Below, piece after piece: positions 1-8,538 of a stretch of 8,538 nucleotides of DNA. The stretch's first letter is position 1. Each line of letters begins with the position of its first letter. The DNA comes from Candidatus Latescibacterota bacterium. Lineage in GTDB: Bacteria; JAAXHH01; JACQVL01. The translations under genes and the position numbers were made by a program. The stretch is taken from the NCBI GenBank assembly GCA_016209865.1, contig JACQVL010000198.1:1-8538 (forward strand). The letters run 5' to 3'. The notes beneath the pieces were generated by a model. That model was given only the letters and a program-made list of their open reading frames with translations, did not search any database and was not told where the DNA came from.

Positions 1-3000
1 GCGTCCCCGTCAGTCCCACGGTCGAGTCGGCGAACGCCAGCCGGTACGCCCGGCCCGCAGGCCGCGCGGGCAGGACATCCGGCTGATCGGACCCCGCCGG
101 AAGCGGCTCCGCGGCGACCGTCAACACGACCGGACGAGACACCGCGCCGGGCGGGACGGAGAAAACGCACTGGCCGTCGGGACTGGCCGCCCAGGCAGAG
201 GTGACCCCGTCGAACGTCAGGCCGGCGTCCGGAGTCACTTGAAACCGCGTGACTTCCAGCACCCGCGTCGTCCGATTATTCCCACGGTTCGGCTCATCCA
301 GCCGGGCGTCCGGGTCGATCACGACAGAGACACGCTGCGTCCCGGCCGGCAAGAGAGCCGTCCACGCCGCCGCCGCGCTCTCTCCCGCCGCGACCCGCGG
401 GATGACTTGATCCGGCCCGATCGGCTGATCCCCCTGAGGAGTCTCACGCCACCCCCGCACGACGACCGAGTCCGCGCTGGTTTCCCCGACGTTTCGGACG
501 CGAACAGCGATCTGCACCGCTTCCCGGCCCGCCAGTTCGACATGCGCGGGGACAACCACCAGGTCGATCGGACGCCGAACCCGGTACCCGGCGGCCGAAC
601 TGGCGATCGTGTTCCCCGCCTGGTTCAGTGCAGAGATCGTGTACGTGACGCTCATCCCGGCCGGCACAGGCGGGATCGGCCGCTGCGTCCGGTACCGGCC
701 GGCGGTCGCGTCCGACACCATCGGCACCTGGTGCGACTCGCCCTGCCCGGACGCCCACGAGCAGGTCACGGCGGCCACCCCGTGCCGGGCTGCGATCTCC
801 GCGAACACCTCCACACTGTCCGACGCGCCCGGCGATGCCGGGCTGTGTGTCACGTTGCCGATGTACCCCTTCCCGATCGCGATCGTCGTCGCGCCCTGTC
901 CATCCCGCCGCTCCCGGTCGCTCCGGTGGTACGCCTTCACGACCGCGTCTCCCGAAGACACCGTGTCGGGAACCGTCACCACGGTGACGAACGTCCCATC
1001 GCGGACGGGCACGGCCGTCACAGACAGGATCGCCTCATCGGGCGCGGCATCCGGCCGCCGGTACAGCGCGAAGTCGACCGTCCCTTCGGCCGCCCCCGTG
1101 ACTCTCCCCTCGACCCGGAGTTGCTCACCGGGGAAGACGGCGGCGGGCGTCGCCCGGAGCGTCACGGTCAGCGGCGGCAGGCCGATGGCGAGCGCCGGGT
1201 CGCCCAACAAGAGGTACTGAAACACCTGGCTTCGGGCGAGATGCCCGCTCAGTCCCTTCCCGTACACGCCGAGGTAGGCCGCTTTGGCCTCCGCGAACAT
1301 CCGGCCGACCTCGCGCGTCCCGTGCGTGAAGAGCGACTGGAACAACGCCTGGTTGATGTAGAAGTCGTTATAGAGCCACCCCGCTCCCGTCGACCCGAAG
1401 AACGCCACAGCGCCGCGGCCGGGCGTCTTGAGAAACCACTCTCCCAGGCCGTCCCCGTCGTGATCGAACGACCCGGTAAAACAGGTCATGCTGACGATCA
1501 CCGGCAGCCGGCCTCCGTTGGTCATCCGGGAGATATCGTCGTACTCCCAGATATTCCGGTCCGACCAGGTGCCCCCGCCGCCATGACCAATAAAATTGAG
1601 GAGCGCCGTCCCGTCATTGAGCTGGCTCACCAACCGCTGCTTGCTGACGGCGTCAAAATCAGGGTTGACCGCATGGGTGTAGAGCAGGCTCAACCGGGCC
1701 ACCAGGTACGCATCCGGGACGTACTCCTGGATGAGGACCTCAGACTCCGCTTCAAACTCTCCCCGCTGATCCCCGCTGACGAAGAACACCGTCCGGCGCC
1801 AATCCCCCCACTCCGGGCTGGCCTCGTACGCGATCGTCTTCTCGATGACCGCGTTCACCTCATCGACGGTGCGCACCGGAAACCGGCCGACGGCCAGGTC
1901 GGGCAGCAGGTCGTCCCCGCTGACGAGGGCGTACGGATGATCACTCCCGATCACGCCGAACGCGACCGTCTGCGCGAGATGGACGGGCACAAAACTCCCG
2001 ACCGCCTCCTTCCCCTTATAGTCGAGGCTCCCGTCCCCGACGAGCAACACATACGACGGCGCGGGCGACCAGTGGGCATACGCGTACCGGAGGAACTGCC
2101 GGATGGCGTCTGGACTGAGTATCCCGTCGTTGAACTGGTCGTAGATCGTCGAAACGTTGACCGTCTCCACCCTCAGGCCCCGGCTCCTTCGATGCGCCGC
2201 GAGCCGCTGGATCGCCTCGTAGAACCGGTCATGGGTGATGATCACGTAATCCGCTCCCCGCGTCGGGTCGGCCAAATTCGGCTCCGGGTCGACCCGCTGA
2301 ACCGCCGCAGGAGTCCGCTTTCCGTCCGGCGTGAGGGCGATGAACCGGGTGTCCGGGTCGAGCACCGGCGTCTGAAAGATCACCCGGTAGCGCCCGCTGG
2401 GCACGACGGGGGTCACCGTCACGTTGACGACACGGCTCACCCCGATCTTATAGACCTGGATGGCGGGCGTGCTGAACCCGTCGATCGTGAACTGATACAG
2501 GCCGAGCGGGCTGTGCTTCGGCTTCGTGAACACGATCTGATCGTCCACCGCCCGGTAGGTCCGTGGATATTCGACCTCCAGCCAGTTCACCCGGACGGCA
2601 TCGACCGCCCCGGCCGGCGTGTCGCCGGGCGCGGCGAGCGAGACGGTCACCGTGTCCCGGAGGCGGGCGGTGGCGGCGAGACGGGAATCCACAGCTCTCT
2701 GCCAGGCGACCCCATCCCAGCGGACGTCCGCCGTCAGGGCCCGGTCGAGAGCGGTCATGACCAGATGATGGTCTGGCGAGTCCGGGCTTTCCGTCCGGCC
2801 GTGGAACATCCCCCGGAGGGTAGTCGGGCTGTCCGCGCCGGGGGCCGGCGCCGGGATGACCAGGGTGTAGTCTCTGGACTGCCCGGCGTTGAGGTCGTCC
2901 CAGAACCAGTGATCGCTCATCGGCTCGACCGACCCACCCAGTCGGTCGAACGCCACGTCCTGCTCGACGTGCACGGTCGACTCATACCAGGCGGGCGCGA

Positions 3001-4102
3001 CGTACCGCGACGGGTCGGTCTGCGCGAGACTGCCGTTTTCTCTGGCCATCCGCCCGCCCGGCTCACTCCCCCAGGAGAGCCAGTAGACGTTCATGTCAGT
3101 GTACGGATCCCGGTACATATCCGGAAACCGGGCCTGGAACGTCTGGCGCTGGCCGACGCCGTAAAATTCGATCCCATCCTCCTCATCGAAGGCGCCGTCG
3201 TCCTCGCCGTCAACGAGGATGGCCACCGGCTGGCCTTTGTTCGTCATCGAGAACGTCCTGGAGTCGATCGTCCGGACGTCAACCCCGGCGTCGACGAGCT
3301 GCCGGGCGGTCACCCGGTACAGCCCGTCGGTGTCGACCATGATTCGGCATCGTGTCCCTGCACCGCCCGCTGTCGGCTTCCTGCGTCCCATCGGCGAGGG
3401 GGGAACTCGCCACCTCCCGATCTCAGCGCCGTTGAGGAGACTGGCTTCCACCGTCCGGTCAAACGCTCCGGGCTGGCGCGGAAACGGGGTCACCGGACGG
3501 GTGACTGGCGTGGTCGTGAGGAAGCGGACGTTGATGAGTAGCCGTGTATAGATGCGCAGTTCTTTCGTGATAGGATGGTAGACGAACGGGTGGACGGTCA
3601 CGGCCGCGACCGGAGTCGACCGGAACAGACCGAGCCGGGTCACGTCAACCAGCCGTTCCGGGGACGCCGGGTCACCGGCCGGGGGACCGCCTCTCATCAC
3701 CGGCACGGGCGCGATGAGGACGCCGGGCACGACCTCGACCGTCGTCTCAACGACCTCGGCGAACAGGCTTCCTTCGGCCGGCACGCCGATGAGGCCTCCG
3801 GTGACCGGAAGCTGCGGTCGGCCGGGCGTCTCGGTCAGACCGTACCCGGCGGCGGTCACCACCGTCCACGATCGTCCGTCACGCTCGACCGGCTGCAGCG
3901 TGTACGCGTTCGTCACCACCTCGACTGTGACCCCATCCGGCCCCGACCGGACCGCCCGGATGTCGTTGCGCAGCTCCCCCAGCGCCACGGCAGGAACGAT
4001 CCCCCAGAACGCCCAGATCAGCGTCAATGCCTCCAGGAGCAGCCCCACACGGCGGGCATCGGCGCGCTGATAGCACTTGGGATGAACAGGAACACTACGC
4101 AT
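1..4102 (-). CDS. Secreted C25 (gingipain-like) cysteine peptidase, multidomain, 3' end outside window
   Basis: The minus frame starting at ATG 4102-4100 stays open to the window edge, giving at least 1367 codons. It begins with a probable signal peptide: basic residues up to RR at 17-18, a hydrophobic stretch at about 19-36, and a possible cleavage site after PAVA (37-40). Residues about 41-600 are a beta-rich prodomain-like region with an acidic motif at 298-315 (DGEDDGAFDEEDGIEFYG). The C25 catalytic domain spans about 618-970. It has DYVIITHDRF at 618, LVGDG at 687-691, the NFIGHGGGG motif with His840, and SMTCFTGSF with Cys874. The His-Cys spacing of 34 is close to that of gingipain R. 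After it come an Ig-like region (about 975-1085), a CARDB-like domain (about 1173-1283, ending LDEPNRGNNRTTRVLEV) and the start of another beta domain with PPGAV. The protein is likely exported and acts outside the cell or at its surface. A type IX secretion signal would lie at the unseen C-terminus, so the export route is unknown. No clear Shine-Dalgarno precedes the ATG, so the exact start is uncertain; an in-frame GTG lies at 4114. Confidence 0.93.
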   Translation of the reverse strand, partial: MRSVPVHPKCYQRADARRVGLLLEALTLIWAFWGIVPAVALGELRNDIRAVRSGPDGVTVEVVTNAYTLQPVERDGRSWTVVTAAGYGLTETPGRPQLPVTGGLIGVPAEGSLFAEVVETTVEVVPGVLIAPVPVMRGGPPAGDPASPERLVDVTRLGLFRSTPVAAVTVHPFVYHPITKELRIYTRLLINVRFLTTTPVTRPVTPFPRQPGAFDRTVEASLLNGAEIGRWRVPPSPMGRRKPTAGGAGTRCRIMVDTDGLYRVTARQLVDAGVDVRTIDSRTFSMTNKGQPVAILVDGEDDGAFDEEDGIEFYGVGQRQTFQARFPDMYRDPYTDMNVYWLSWGSEPGGRMARENGSLAQTDPSRYVAPAWYESTVHVEQDVAFDRLGGSVEPMSDHWFWDDLNAGQSRDYTLVIPAPAPGADSPTTLRGMFHGRTESPDSPDHHLVMTALDRALTADVRWDGVAWQRAVDSRLAATARLRDTVTVSLAAPGDTPAGAVDAVRVNWLEVEYPRTYRAVDDQIVFTKPKHSPLGLYQFTIDGFSTPAIQVYKIGVSRVVNVTVTPVVPSGRYRVIFQTPVLDPDTRFIALTPDGKRTPAAVQRVDPEPNLADPTRGADYVIITHDRFYEAIQRLAAHRRSRGLRVETVNVSTIYDQFNDGILSPDAIRQFLRYAYAHWSPAPSYVLLVGDGSLDYKGKEAVGSFVPVHLAQTVAFGVIGSDHPYALVSGDDLLPDLAVGRFPVRTVDEVNAVIEKTIAYEASPEWGDWRRTVFFVSGDQRGEFEAESEVLIQEYVPDAYLVARLSLLYTHAVNPDFDAVSKQRLVSQLNDGTALLNFIGHGGGGTWSDRNIWEYDDISRMTNGGRLPVIVSMTCFTGSFDHDGDGLGEWFLKTPGRGAVAFFGSTGAGWLYNDFYINQALFQSLFTHGTREVGRMFAEAKAAYLGVYGKGLSGHLARSQVFQYLLLGDPALAIGLPPLTVTLRATPAAVFPGEQLRVEGRVTGAAEGTVDFALYRRPDAAPDEAILSVTAVPVRDGTFVTVVTVPDTVSSGDAVVKAYHRSDRERRDGQGATTIAIGKGYIGNVTHSPASPGASDSVEVFAEIAARHGVAAVTCSWASGQGESHQVPMVSDATAGRYRTQRPIPPVPAGMSVTYTISALNQAGNTIASSAAGYRVRRPIDLVVVPAHVELAGREAVQIAVRVRNVGETSADSVVVRGWRETPQGDQPIGPDQVIPRVAAGESAAAAWTALLPAGTQRVSVVIDPDARLDEPNRGNNRTTRVLEVTRFQVTPDAGLTFDGVTSAWAASPDGQCVFSVPPGAVSRPVVLTVAAEPLPAGSDQPDVLPARPAGRAYRLAFADSTVGLTGT

Positions 4103-4126
4103 AACGCGCTGCACAACAGGAGCTTT

Positions 4127-4157
4127 ATAATTAAGCGGAAATGTAATCACATGTCAA
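4127..4157 (-). promoter_or_regulatory. Candidate sigma70-type promoter for the C25 peptidase gene
   Basis: On the minus strand a perfect TTGACA lies at 4157-4152 in the AT-rich 63-base gap between the glycosyltransferase remnant and the peptidase. Possible -10 boxes are TTAATT at 4134-4129 (17-base spacer, 3 of 6 matches) and AATTAT at 4132-4127 (19-base spacer, 4 of 6 matches). A transcription start near 4120 would leave a leader of only about 20 bases before the ATG. The -10 match is mediocre, and promoter consensus in this lineage is unknown, so this is a suggestion. Confidence 0.35.
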
Positions 4158-4942: not shown

Positions 4943-5689
4943 TTATCCCCGCGCGTGGATGGCCGCCGCGAATTCCCGGATCAGGCCCGGACTGCCGCGT
5001 TCCTCCAAAATATTCCCGGTCACGATAAAATCCGCCCCGGCCGCGACCTTCTCTGAGGCGACTCGGGGGTCTCGAATCCCTCCCCCGACGATCAGCGGGA
5101 TGGACACATACTCCCGGACGCGCCGAATGAGGGCATCGGGGACCGGGAAGCGCGCGCCGCTGCCCGCCTCTAAGAACACGAGTTTCATCCCTAAGTATTC
5201 CGCCGCCAGGGCGTGCGCCATAGCGATCATCGGCTTCTTCCGCGGAATCGGCCGGGTATCGCTCATGAACTCGGCGGACGTCATCCGGCCCGACTCGATC
5301 AGCAGATACCCGGTCGGGATGGGCTCGACCCCGAATTGCTTGATGAGCGGGGCGGCGCGCACCTGGTCGCCGATCAGATGATGGGGGTTCCGCCCGCTGA
5401 TGAGGGACAGGAACAGGATGGCATCCGCGTGGCGGGAAAGCTGGTTCGACCCGCCCGGAAAGAGGATGACCGGGATATCGACCCGCTGTTTCACCGACCG
5501 TACGACCTCATCGAAGTCTGTAGAGAACAGCAGGCTGCTCCCGATGAGCAGGGCATCCACCCCGTTCTCGGCGCACTGGACGGCGACCTGGGTCAGCGCC
5601 GGGCCGGCCAGTTTGTCCGGGTCGAGCAGAGCGAGATACCCGGCCCCCTTCTCTGCGCGCACCCGCTGGAGGTAGTCGAAGATGGGCAT
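4943..5689 (-). CDS. Geranylgeranylglyceryl phosphate synthase family prenyltransferase (bacterial group II type)
   Basis: This family joins sn-glycerol-1-phosphate to a polyprenyl diphosphate through an ether bond, the first committed step of archaeal-type ether lipids, on a TIM barrel in the cytosol. The 248-residue length is normal for the family. Visible motifs are LLDPDK (21-26, phosphate/metal end), DALLIGSS (45-52), FPGGSNQLS (77-85), ADAILFLSLISGRNP (88-102), PTGYLLIESG (125-134), FLEAGSGA (172-179), VGGGIRDP (201-208) and TGN (224-226, second phosphate-binding loop). The FPGG...SGRNP pattern and the EAGSGA loop fit group II enzymes of Bacteroidota and allied bacteria better than Bacillus PcrB. 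Prenyl chain length cannot be read from sequence alone. The ATG lies 3 bases after the alaS TGA, and no strong Shine-Dalgarno is visible in the preceding bases, which suggests translational coupling to alaS. No other ether-lipid gene is in the window. Confidence 0.93.
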   Translation of the reverse strand: MPIFDYLQRVRAEKGAGYLALLDPDKLAGPALTQVAVQCAENGVDALLIGSSLLFSTDFDEVVRSVKQRVDIPVILFPGGSNQLSRHADAILFLSLISGRNPHHLIGDQVRAAPLIKQFGVEPIPTGYLLIESGRMTSAEFMSDTRPIPRKKPMIAMAHALAAEYLGMKLVFLEAGSGARFPVPDALIRRVREYVSIPLIVGGGIRDPRVASEKVAAGADFIVTGNILEERGSPGLIREFAAAIHARG

Positions 5690-5692
5690 CGT

Positions 5693-8359
5693 TCAACCGT
5701 TCTGAAGCCTTGCCCTCACGATCACGGGCACCTGTTTGATCGCCTCGTCCAGTTTGGCCGCCTCTTTCCCGCCTGCCTGGGCCATGTGGGGCTTCCCGCC
5801 GCCGCCCCCGCCGATGATCTTCGCGATGTCCTGGGCGATCGGGCCGGCGGCAAGACGCGCCGCGGAGATGGCCGAGTCGGTCGCCACCGTGATGCAGACT
5901 GGCCGGTCGGCAATGACCGCGAACAGCGCCCCGATGGCGGCTCCGGGGAGTCTGCTGCGGACCGCATCCGCCATCGTCCTCAGCGACTCCACGTCGGGAC
6001 TCTCGACGCGGGCCGCCGCGACCGTGACCCCGTCCACCTGCGTGGCGTCGGCGAGCATCTCATCCAGCCAGTTTTTAGCGGATTCATTGCGCAGGCGTTT
6101 GATCTCCCGCTCCAATTCCCGGATGCGGGCGGTCAACCCCTCGGCCCGGCGGACGACGTCCCCCGGCTCGGTCTTCAGGAGGGCGGCCATCTCTTGAAGC
6201 GTGCGCGTCTCCTGCTTGATCGCCTGGTACGCCGCCTCGCCCGTGAGGGCTTCGATCCGGCGGACCCCGGCCGCGCTCGCCGATTCCCGGACCAAGCGGA
6301 AACAGCCGATCTCCCCCGTCGCTCGGAGATGCGTCCCGCCGCAGAGTTCCAGGCTCACATCCCCGACCCGGACGACCCGCACCCGGTCGCCGTATTTCTC
6401 CTCGAACAGCGCCATCGCGCCCATCCGCTTCGCGTCGTCGAAGCCCGTCTCGAACGACTCGACCGGCAGGTTCTCCCACACCCATTCGTTCACCATCCGC
6501 TCGATCTCGTCCAGCTCCCGTGGGTCGACGGAAGAGAAGTGGGAAAAATCAAACCGGAGCCGGTCGGGAGCGACCAGCGACCCGGTTTGATGGACGTGCG
6601 TGCCCAACACCGCGCGCAGGGCGGCGTGGAGGAGATGGGTGGCGGTATGGTTCCGCATGATCGCCCGGCGACGGGCCGCATCCACGCGGGCGGCGACCTT
6701 TGTAAGAGGAGGTAGTAAACGGGTATCTGCTGGGTCGCAACGATGAATGATTGCCGTTCCATGTCTAATAGTATCGATGATTCGGTATTCTTCCCCACTT
6801 TCCATGATCAACACACCTGTATCACCAACTTGACCCCCAGACTCGGCATAGAATGGAGTCTGATTGAGGAGCACTGACGAATCGAAGACCGCGACAACTT
6901 GGACATCACAAACTTTAAGGGTGTCATATCCAAGAAATTTGGAGTGTGCCACTGGTATTGCACCATGCTCAGTTGCAAATTTATCTGACCGATCTTGTGC
7001 ATCAAGAAATGTTCTGGCTGCCTCATTAATACCCGCCCGCGACCGCGCCCGCTGTCGCTCCATCTCCCGCTCGAACCCGGCAAGATCGACGATCAAACCC
7101 CTCTCTGCCGCGATGAGCTGAATCAGGTCGACCGGAAACCCGAACGTATCGTAGAGTTTGAACGCCTCCGCCCCGGCGATCTCCCGGCGGCCTTCCCGTC
7201 CGGCCTGTTCCGCCACCGCCTCGAACAACTCCAGCCCGCGGTCGAGCGTCCGGCCGAACCCTTCTTCTTCCGCCTTGATGACGAGGGCGACGCGCTCGTG
7301 CTCCGCCCGGACCTCCGGGTACGCCCCCCCCATGATGTCCACCACCGTGGGGACGAGCCGGTAGATGAACGGCTCGTGCTGGTCGAGCGTCCGGCCGAAC
7401 CGGGCGGCGCGCCGCAGGATGCGCCGGAGGACGTAGCCGCGGCCCTCGTTCGACGGCAGCCCCCCGTCGGCGATGGCGAACGTCAGGGCGCGCACGTGGT
7501 CGGCGATCACCCGGAACGCGGCCGCATGCGTCTCGTCGTCCGGCTGGCCCGTCAACTCCGCGATCCGGTCGAGGAGGGAGACGAACAGGTCGGTGTCGTA
7601 GTTCGACTCCACCCCCTGGAGGAGGGCGACCATCCGCTCGAACCCCATCCCGGTGTCGACGTGCTTGGCGGGGAGCGGGTGGAGCGCGCCCGTCTCATCC
7701 CGGTTGTACTGGATGAACACTAAGTTCCAGATCTCCATGTACCGGCCGCACCCGGCGTTCACCCCGCACTGATGCCCGGGCACGCCTCGTTGGCCACACC
7801 GGTCGGGACCGAGGTCGATACTGATCTCCGAGCAGGGTCCGCATGGGCCAGTCTCCCCCATCTCCCAGAAGTTGTCCTTCTCCCCGAACCGTAGGATGTG
7901 TCCGCGGTCGATGTCCGTGCACTCCCCCCACAGGCCGGCCGCTTCGTCGTCCTCCAAGAAGACGGTCGCCCACAGCACCTCCTTCGGGAGCTTCCATTCC
8001 TCTGTCAGGAGTTCCCACGCCCAGGCGATCGCCTCGCGCTTGTAGTAATCGCCGAACGACCAGTTCCCCAACATTTCGAAGAACGTGTTGTGGTAGGTAT
8101 CTCTCCCCACATCTTCCAGGTCGTTGTGCTTCCCGCCCGCCCGGATGCATTTCTGCGAATCGACCGCCCGCCGGTAGCTCCGGGTTCCGGTCCCCAAGAA
8201 GACATCCTTGAACTGGTTCATCCCCGCGTTCGAGAACAGCAGGGTGGGGTCATCCCAGGGGATGACGCTCGAGCTGGGGACGATGGTATGGCCCCGCGCG
8301 GCGAAAAAATCCAGGAATGATTGCCGAATGTCCTGACTGGTCAACTGATGCTCCTTCAT
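5693..8359 (-). CDS. alaS: Alanyl-tRNA synthetase
   Basis: The enzyme charges tRNA-Ala with alanine and hydrolyses mischarged Ser/Gly-tRNA-Ala. Its 888 residues are close to the bacterial norm of about 875. From the ATG at 8359: the catalytic core includes RAGGKHNDLEDVGRDT (73-88, class II motif 2 region) and GMGFERM (237-243, motif 3). The editing domain has TPFYAESGGQVGDTG (501-515), H571 and H575 in NHTATHLLH, and C673 and H677 in LCGGTHL, the four metal ligands expected. A coiled coil follows at about 715-760, and the C-terminal C-Ala domain has GGGGGGKPHMAQAGGK (850-865). A cysteine-rich insert lies at 173-204. The frame opens 16 codons earlier at 8407, but those codons are a dispersed repeat. 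The ATG at 8359 has only a poorly spaced AGGGA; a TTG at 8344 with AAGGAG 6 bases upstream is an equally good start. Residues 443-554 are encoded by unusually AT-rich DNA. Confidence 0.98.
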   Translation of the reverse strand: MKEHQLTSQDIRQSFLDFFAARGHTIVPSSSVIPWDDPTLLFSNAGMNQFKDVFLGTGTRSYRRAVDSQKCIRAGGKHNDLEDVGRDTYHNTFFEMLGNWSFGDYYKREAIAWAWELLTEEWKLPKEVLWATVFLEDDEAAGLWGECTDIDRGHILRFGEKDNFWEMGETGPCGPCSEISIDLGPDRCGQRGVPGHQCGVNAGCGRYMEIWNLVFIQYNRDETGALHPLPAKHVDTGMGFERMVALLQGVESNYDTDLFVSLLDRIAELTGQPDDETHAAAFRVIADHVRALTFAIADGGLPSNEGRGYVLRRILRRAARFGRTLDQHEPFIYRLVPTVVDIMGGAYPEVRAEHERVALVIKAEEEGFGRTLDRGLELFEAVAEQAGREGRREIAGAEAFKLYDTFGFPVDLIQLIAAERGLIVDLAGFEREMERQRARSRAGINEAARTFLDAQDRSDKFATEHGAIPVAHSKFLGYDTLKVCDVQVVAVFDSSVLLNQTPFYAESGGQVGDTGVLIMESGEEYRIIDTIRHGTAIIHRCDPADTRLLPPLTKVAARVDAARRRAIMRNHTATHLLHAALRAVLGTHVHQTGSLVAPDRLRFDFSHFSSVDPRELDEIERMVNEWVWENLPVESFETGFDDAKRMGAMALFEEKYGDRVRVVRVGDVSLELCGGTHLRATGEIGCFRLVRESASAAGVRRIEALTGEAAYQAIKQETRTLQEMAALLKTEPGDVVRRAEGLTARIRELEREIKRLRNESAKNWLDEMLADATQVDGVTVAAARVESPDVESLRTMADAVRSRLPGAAIGALFAVIADRPVCITVATDSAISAARLAAGPIAQDIAKIIGGGGGGKPHMAQAGGKEAAKLDEAIKQVPVIVRARLQNG
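6698..7033 (-). other. Low-GC segment inside alaS (possible recombinant patch)
   Basis: Counting 6721-7020 gives 138 G+C in 300 bases (46%). Sampled lines on either side give 73% (7201-7260) and 68% (6601-6660). The edges are sharp: the right edge is at the GGT ATT AAT GAG codons (residues 443-446) and the left at CCT CTT ACA AAG (551-554). Codons here favour A/T in third position and include TTA and CTA, which I see little of elsewhere in the gene. The encoded residues (GINEAARTFL to the PPLTK region) still fit the AlaRS family and contain the first strands of the editing domain with TPFYAESGGQVGDTG. Confidence 0.75.
8351..8356 (-). promoter_or_regulatory. Strong Shine-Dalgarno inside the annotated alaS start region
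   Basis: AAGGAG at 8356-8351 is followed by CATCAG and then TTG at 8344-8342. Starting there gives a protein beginning (M)TSQDIRQSFLDFF, a normal AlaRS N-terminus. The ATG at 8359 has only AGGGA two bases upstream. This site therefore supports TTG 8344 as an alternative or true start. Confidence 0.5.
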
Positions 8360-8380
8360 GTTCCCTGTTATTGCGCTGTT

Positions 8381-8406
8381 GTCATTCCCGCGAAAGCGGG
8401 AATCCA
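8381..8406. repeat. Dispersed palindromic repeat between recX and alaS
   Basis: The plus strand has a perfect 8-bp inverted repeat, attcccgc (8384-8391) and gcgggaat (8396-8403), around a GAAA loop, inside gtcattcccg...aatcca. This is the widespread bacterial intergenic element whose translation on one strand reads '(M)DSRFRGND'. In the minus-strand transcript it forms a hairpin with a UUUC loop 25 bases upstream of the alaS ATG at 8359. No T-run follows, so it is not an intrinsic terminator. Such elements are usually multicopy and can be mobilised by REP-associated transposases; none is present here. Confidence 0.85.
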
Positions 8407-8407
8407 T

Positions 8408-8538
8408 TTACTCGCCGAGAACCTGTCTCACCGCTGCGTACACCGTCTCGCTGTCAAACCCGCGCCGGGCGAGCAGTCCGGCCATCCGGCGCCGGGCGGT
8501 CTGCGGGTCGAGGCCGGCGTACCGGCCCTGCCGCCGGA
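8408..8538 (-). CDS. recX: RecX regulatory protein, C-terminal fragment (5' end outside window)
   Basis: The last 42 codons of a minus-strand gene end at TAA 8410-8408. The peptide contains QGRYAGLDPQTARRRMAG followed by LLARRGFDSETVYAAVRQVLGE. This is the closing three-helix repeat of RecX, which binds RecA filaments and limits their activity. The position immediately upstream of alaS supports the call, since recA-recX-alaS is a common bacterial order. The TAA directly abuts the ATG that opens the repeat-derived extension of the alaS frame. The fragment is short, so identity rests on the motif plus context. Confidence 0.82.
   Translation of the reverse strand, partial: RRQGRYAGLDPQTARRRMAGLLARRGFDSETVYAAVRQVLGE

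Follow-up and report, generated by a model that had tools for sequence, protein, structure and literature searches.

Many genes with internal recombination breakpoints were found in a survey of 144 prokaryotic genomes, in which the regions encoding protein domains were not preferentially kept intact, nor were protein domains the preferred units (Chan et al., 2009; PMC2639706). For alanyl-tRNA synthetase (AlaRS), we found nothing specific on intragenic recombination in an open-access library. Here, we describe an alaS gene in which an internal patch differs abruptly in codon composition from the sequence on both sides, probably as the result of a homologous replacement.

The alaS gene and its low-GC3 patch

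The window, i.e. the whole stretch of DNA analysed, is one entire contig of 8,538 bases (G000:C148) from a draft genome of 3.75 Mb, which is assembled in 356 contigs and 83% complete. The features of alaS discussed below, with codons and residues counted from the first ATG, are:

5693..8407, minus strand: alaS, alanyl-tRNA synthetase, a 904-codon open frame counted from the first ATG, with a likelier start at Met17 (8359)
6698..7033, minus strand: low-GC3 patch, codons 459-570, covering the linker helix after the catalytic fragment and the beta-barrel part of the editing domain
7027..7042, minus strand: upstream patch edge, the 95% change-point interval for the first patch codon (456-461)
6689..6704, minus strand: downstream patch edge, with the last patch codon at 568-573 (95% change-point interval), immediately ahead of the strand that in the structure model leads into the HTATH helix
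6635..6649, minus strand: HTATH editing-site motif, residues 587-591, outside the patch, in alignment columns that are invariant or nearly so
6329..6343, minus strand: CGGTH editing-site motif, residues 689-693, outside the patch, likewise in invariant or nearly invariant columns

The alaS frame is unbroken and present as a single copy; a search of its own genome for a second alaS matched only alaS itself. The product carries the Pfam domains tRNA-synt_2c (26-578), tRNA_SAD (676-719) and DHHA1 (794-893), the set expected of a full AlaRS. Judged by its sequence, it has the parts of a functional bacterial AlaRS, namely a catalytic domain, an editing domain with both HTATH and CGGTH, and a C-terminal DHHA1 domain, all in one unbroken frame. 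A palindromic repeat, TCATTCCCGCGAAAGCGGGAATCC, lies at 8382-8405 between recX and alaS, and its motif with one free base had 107 matches in the genome (both strands counted), compared with 0 for the reversed control. Because this repeat sits there, the first 16 codons of the 904-aa frame (MDSRFRGNDNSAITGN) are likely non-coding, and alaS therefore probably starts at Met17. Upstream of alaS, positions 8408-8538 hold the 3' end of a gene that by eye resembles the RecX C-terminus (ARRRMAGLLARRGFDSETVYAAVRQVLGE). A PcrB-family gene resembling geranylgeranylglyceryl phosphate synthase (4943-5689) directly adjoins alaS downstream, and positions 2-4150 encode a large, gingipain-like peptidase (family C25) of secreted type, which has a C25 propeptide and a CARDB domain.

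A sequence-only reading of the window had described a sharp low-GC patch at 6698-7033 within a gene of about 70% GC. The patch is real, as the sliding GC profile, a GC3 segment score and a change-point model all agree. In the sliding profile, GC drops from 62-67% to 47-50% and then recovers; the gene is indeed GC-rich outside the patch, although at a measured 66-69% instead of 70%. When third codon positions were coded as a string of GC or AT, the best AT3 segment comprised codons 459-569 of the 904-aa frame (7033..6701; codon 459 at 7033, codon 569 at 6701), where GC3 is 0.32 as opposed to 0.87 in the remainder of alaS. The maximal segment score of 39 far exceeded the top of 10,000 shuffles, which was 10. 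The change-point model gained 72 in log-likelihood and placed each edge within ~6 codons, and within these limits the coordinates 6698-7033 are right to a few bases. Counting from the ATG at 8407 turns the residues 443-554 assigned to the patch in the same reading into 459-570, whereas counting from the likelier start at Met17 gives 443-554.

The shift is strong at the third codon position only, with GC1/2/3 of 0.61/0.42/0.32 inside the patch and 0.67/0.45/0.87 outside. Within the patch, GC3 amounts to 0.22 in the variable linker and 0.37 in the conserved barrel. As in a mosaic gene, the composition differs sharply from both flanks with localised edges, and the patch aligns position by position with its homologues while keeping the frame, which is the pattern of a replacement and not of an insertion.

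We also asked how unusual such a patch is. A sample of the same genome comprised 100 contigs, 0.90 Mb of called bases (24% of the genome) and 1,321 open frames of at least 200 codons. Of the internal GC3 dips flanked on both sides by high GC3, the alaS patch was by far the strongest, and no patch of comparable strength was found inside another gene of this sample. Four other internal dips were much weaker, short, or resembled non-coding read-through. Several further apparent patches, each at the 5' end of an open frame, were set aside; judging by the translations that were read, such frames extend too far upstream, into the gene before them or into intergenic DNA. In a comparison of 108 alaS genes (same order, other phyla and Alphaproteobacteria), the window's patch again had the largest signal, with a log-likelihood gain of 73; the next was 32, for a 20-codon stretch.

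Encoded segment, relatives and donor search

A structure was modelled for residues 436-735 with a mean pLDDT of 86, and the model matches solved structures of AlaRS and AlaX-M (2zze, 3wqy, 2e1b and 9iuw). The patch corresponds to model residues 24-135, predicted to form the strands of the beta-barrel and, ahead of them, the latter half of a long helix or linker that is modelled with less confidence. The match to a crystallised catalytic fragment, that of E. coli AlaRS, stops at query residue 458, which coincides with the upstream edge of the patch. The sequence-only reading had suggested that the patch could change mischarging correction, which we find unsupported. The patch keeps the invariant columns of a 23-sequence alignment, those of TPFYAESGGQ included, which by definition are present in it, and both the HTATH and CGGTH motifs lie outside. 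From these residues and motifs, the enzyme looks intact, with no sign of altered editing.

AlaX-M carries the same part of the editing domain as the patch encodes. By similarity, however, the patch comes nearest to full-length alaS genes from its own order and is a piece of alaS. Capture of a free-standing AlaX was rejected, as even the most similar AlaX-like protein of the order, found in G011, is only 25% identical.

The relatives compared were 15 genomes of the same order, none nearer. When 110 alaS proteins were ranked by similarity to the patch, all 15 order members took ranks 1-15, above the other 95, and showed 0-3 gap positions against the patch as opposed to 6-30 in the best non-members. 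Most of the other bacteria compared have an additional stretch of ~14 residues before TPFYAESGGQ, which is absent from the patch. A position of the window within the outgroup was rejected on the patch data (AU 4e-5) and on the barrel alone (AU 9e-4). Placements within the order, tested explicitly in 10-taxon patch trees with ~100 sites, were statistically indistinguishable. With all order members included, the full patch alignment rejected the flank tree (AU 0.001), but this result is uninformative about the window because the trees also differ among members of genus g3 and outgroups. The separate phylogenies proposed earlier as a check on the patch consequently did not set the segments apart: all fall in the same order, with the position of the patch within it indistinct.

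The divergence of the patch protein is normal for its region, with a mean regression residual of +0.02 on pairwise identities. Throughout the order, this region of alaS evolves fast, and the relatives differ from the window's patch no more than they do from one another. Because the patch protein looks like an ordinary order-level AlaRS, the case for import rests on codon composition and the sharpness of the edges.

Searches for a donor matched only alaS itself in the own genome, no closely matching sequence in the class and the 15 order relatives, and only short conserved stretches in plasmids. A scan of genome contigs gave best matches of 33-52% identity at the protein level, mostly from Rhodobacteraceae and Bradyrhizobium, and no donor. 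The alaS genes of these two groups show no comparable GC3 dip at the patch position; amino-acid divergence is raised there in Rhodobacteraceae. None of the order genomes examined has an alaS GC3 as low as 0.32, the lowest gene-wide value being about 0.5, and a donor would therefore be an unsampled low-GC lineage.

Origin of the patch

We consider it likely that the patch is a homologous replacement by DNA from an unsampled lineage of this order with a lower GC content. Replacement by a lower-GC relative had been proposed in the sequence-only reading, and it fits the composition, the edges and the same-order resemblance best, although the segments did not yield the different phylogenies expected of it. 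In its favour, GC3 over residues 519-569 is 0.33 here versus 0.69-0.92 in twelve g3 relatives. On the other side, recombination between sequences so divergent should be rare, no donor was found, and the within-order patch trees show no topological conflict with the flanks. The normal divergence of the patch also weighs against replacement, because a vertically inherited segment would show the same.

We envisage that an alaS fragment from the donor entered this lineage and that ~336 bp, encoding the linker and the beta-barrel subdomain, were swapped in frame by recombination that ended within the conserved stretches flanking them. The import would be recent enough that its codons are still unadapted to the GC3 of the host. 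Because the protein keeps the conserved family residues, aminoacylation and editing would be expected to be unchanged, and drift or hitchhiking could have fixed the segment as readily as any advantage.

Alternatively, the assembly might be chimeric, with an alaS segment of a low-GC relative present in the sample joined into the contig at both ends, which we regard as unlikely. The fragmented state of the draft would suit such an error, as would the alaS gene of G011, which is broken over two contig ends that overlap by 140 bp at about residues 395-438. A chimera, however, would have to arise from two joins no more than 336 bp apart, each of them in frame and at a homologous position. Moreover, the host side of each edge consists mostly of GC-ending codons, which a donor with a GC3 of 0.32 would rarely share, so that a shared k-mer of at least 21 bases at the edges is improbable (~3e-4 and 7e-4, from the third-position class alone). 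The contig-end overlap in G011 (L113 and L128) is 99.3% identical and lies ~20 codons upstream of the position of the patch edge; it possibly reflects local strain variation in the assembly graph.

Quite improbable in our view is local relaxation, by which a weakly constrained, fast-evolving segment would have drifted to AT-ending codons without any import. The alaS linker of genus g3 (461-510) is hypervariable, with high amino-acid and synonymous divergence and a lower GC3. These features recur together in the variable linker of dnaX, so that in this clade a lower GC3 accompanies weak constraint. However, the g3 dip is milder than that of the window, both edges of the window's patch are abrupt, and its GC3 of 0.37 persists across the conserved barrel to residue 569, where the g3 relatives have the much higher values given above. 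The g3 dip itself is mostly explained by weak constraint. In the g3 dnaX linker (L238-L250; for instance L247:15904-17905, presumably dnaX, a name taken from reading the translated sequence), GC3 is ~0.6 versus 0.85 and synonymous divergence is high, and weakly constrained stretches in the clade seem to lose GC-ending codons.

That a second coding or regulatory function, such as an overlapping gene, an internal promoter or an RNA element, forces the codon choice would agree with the confinement of the strong shift to third positions, but it is hardly credible given that no other open frame of at least 100 aa spans the patch, that another reading frame contains 10 stops, and that the low GC3 through the barrel is not common to the relatives.

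Recurrence and comparison with known systems

A general alaS hot spot in g3, at first striking, was dropped, since dnaX there shows the same weak constraint, low GC3 and high divergence, and only G010 is still suggestive. Its alaS flanks are 93% and 89% identical to those of G012 at the DNA level, while the segment between them is only 61% identical. Compared with its nearest relative L006, the DNA identity of the G010 gene (L010) falls from ~0.9 to 0.1-0.8 across residues 461-570 and is at least 0.9 again from 571. GC3 of this segment is 0.56 versus 0.84, and synonymous divergence in 519-569 is raised, 0.47 versus 0.29, albeit with a median Fisher p of only 0.13. The G010 segment is a possible second replacement with nearly the same edges as the window's patch. 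Only tentatively, residues ~459-570 of AlaRS might then be a spot of recurrent replacement in the order, with imports in the window's genome and in G010 on top of the hypervariable g3 linker. Such recurrent exchange could be kept up by flanking conserved sequence that favours crossing over, or by selection on the linker and barrel.

The alaS patch is most likely a new, clean case of an already well-documented process. It resembles the intragenic lateral transfers surveyed by Chan et al. (2009; PMC2639706) in that a homologous segment from a different lineage would have taken the place of a portion of a core gene, within which both breakpoints lie. It differs from them in that the alaS segment happens to match a structural unit, the linker plus beta-barrel, and in the kind of evidence, as the survey used breakpoint detection in aligned orthologues whereas the alaS case rests on composition. 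The patch is an unusually legible exchange below the level of the gene, in an essential housekeeping gene and across a wide gap in composition. It also illustrates that separate trees for each part, the usual test, can miss an exchange when donor and recipient belong to one order, while the trace in codon composition persists. If the segment were indeed exchanged repeatedly, a protein subdomain would become a testable unit of recombination, contrary to the general tendency in the survey of Chan et al. (2009; PMC2639706).
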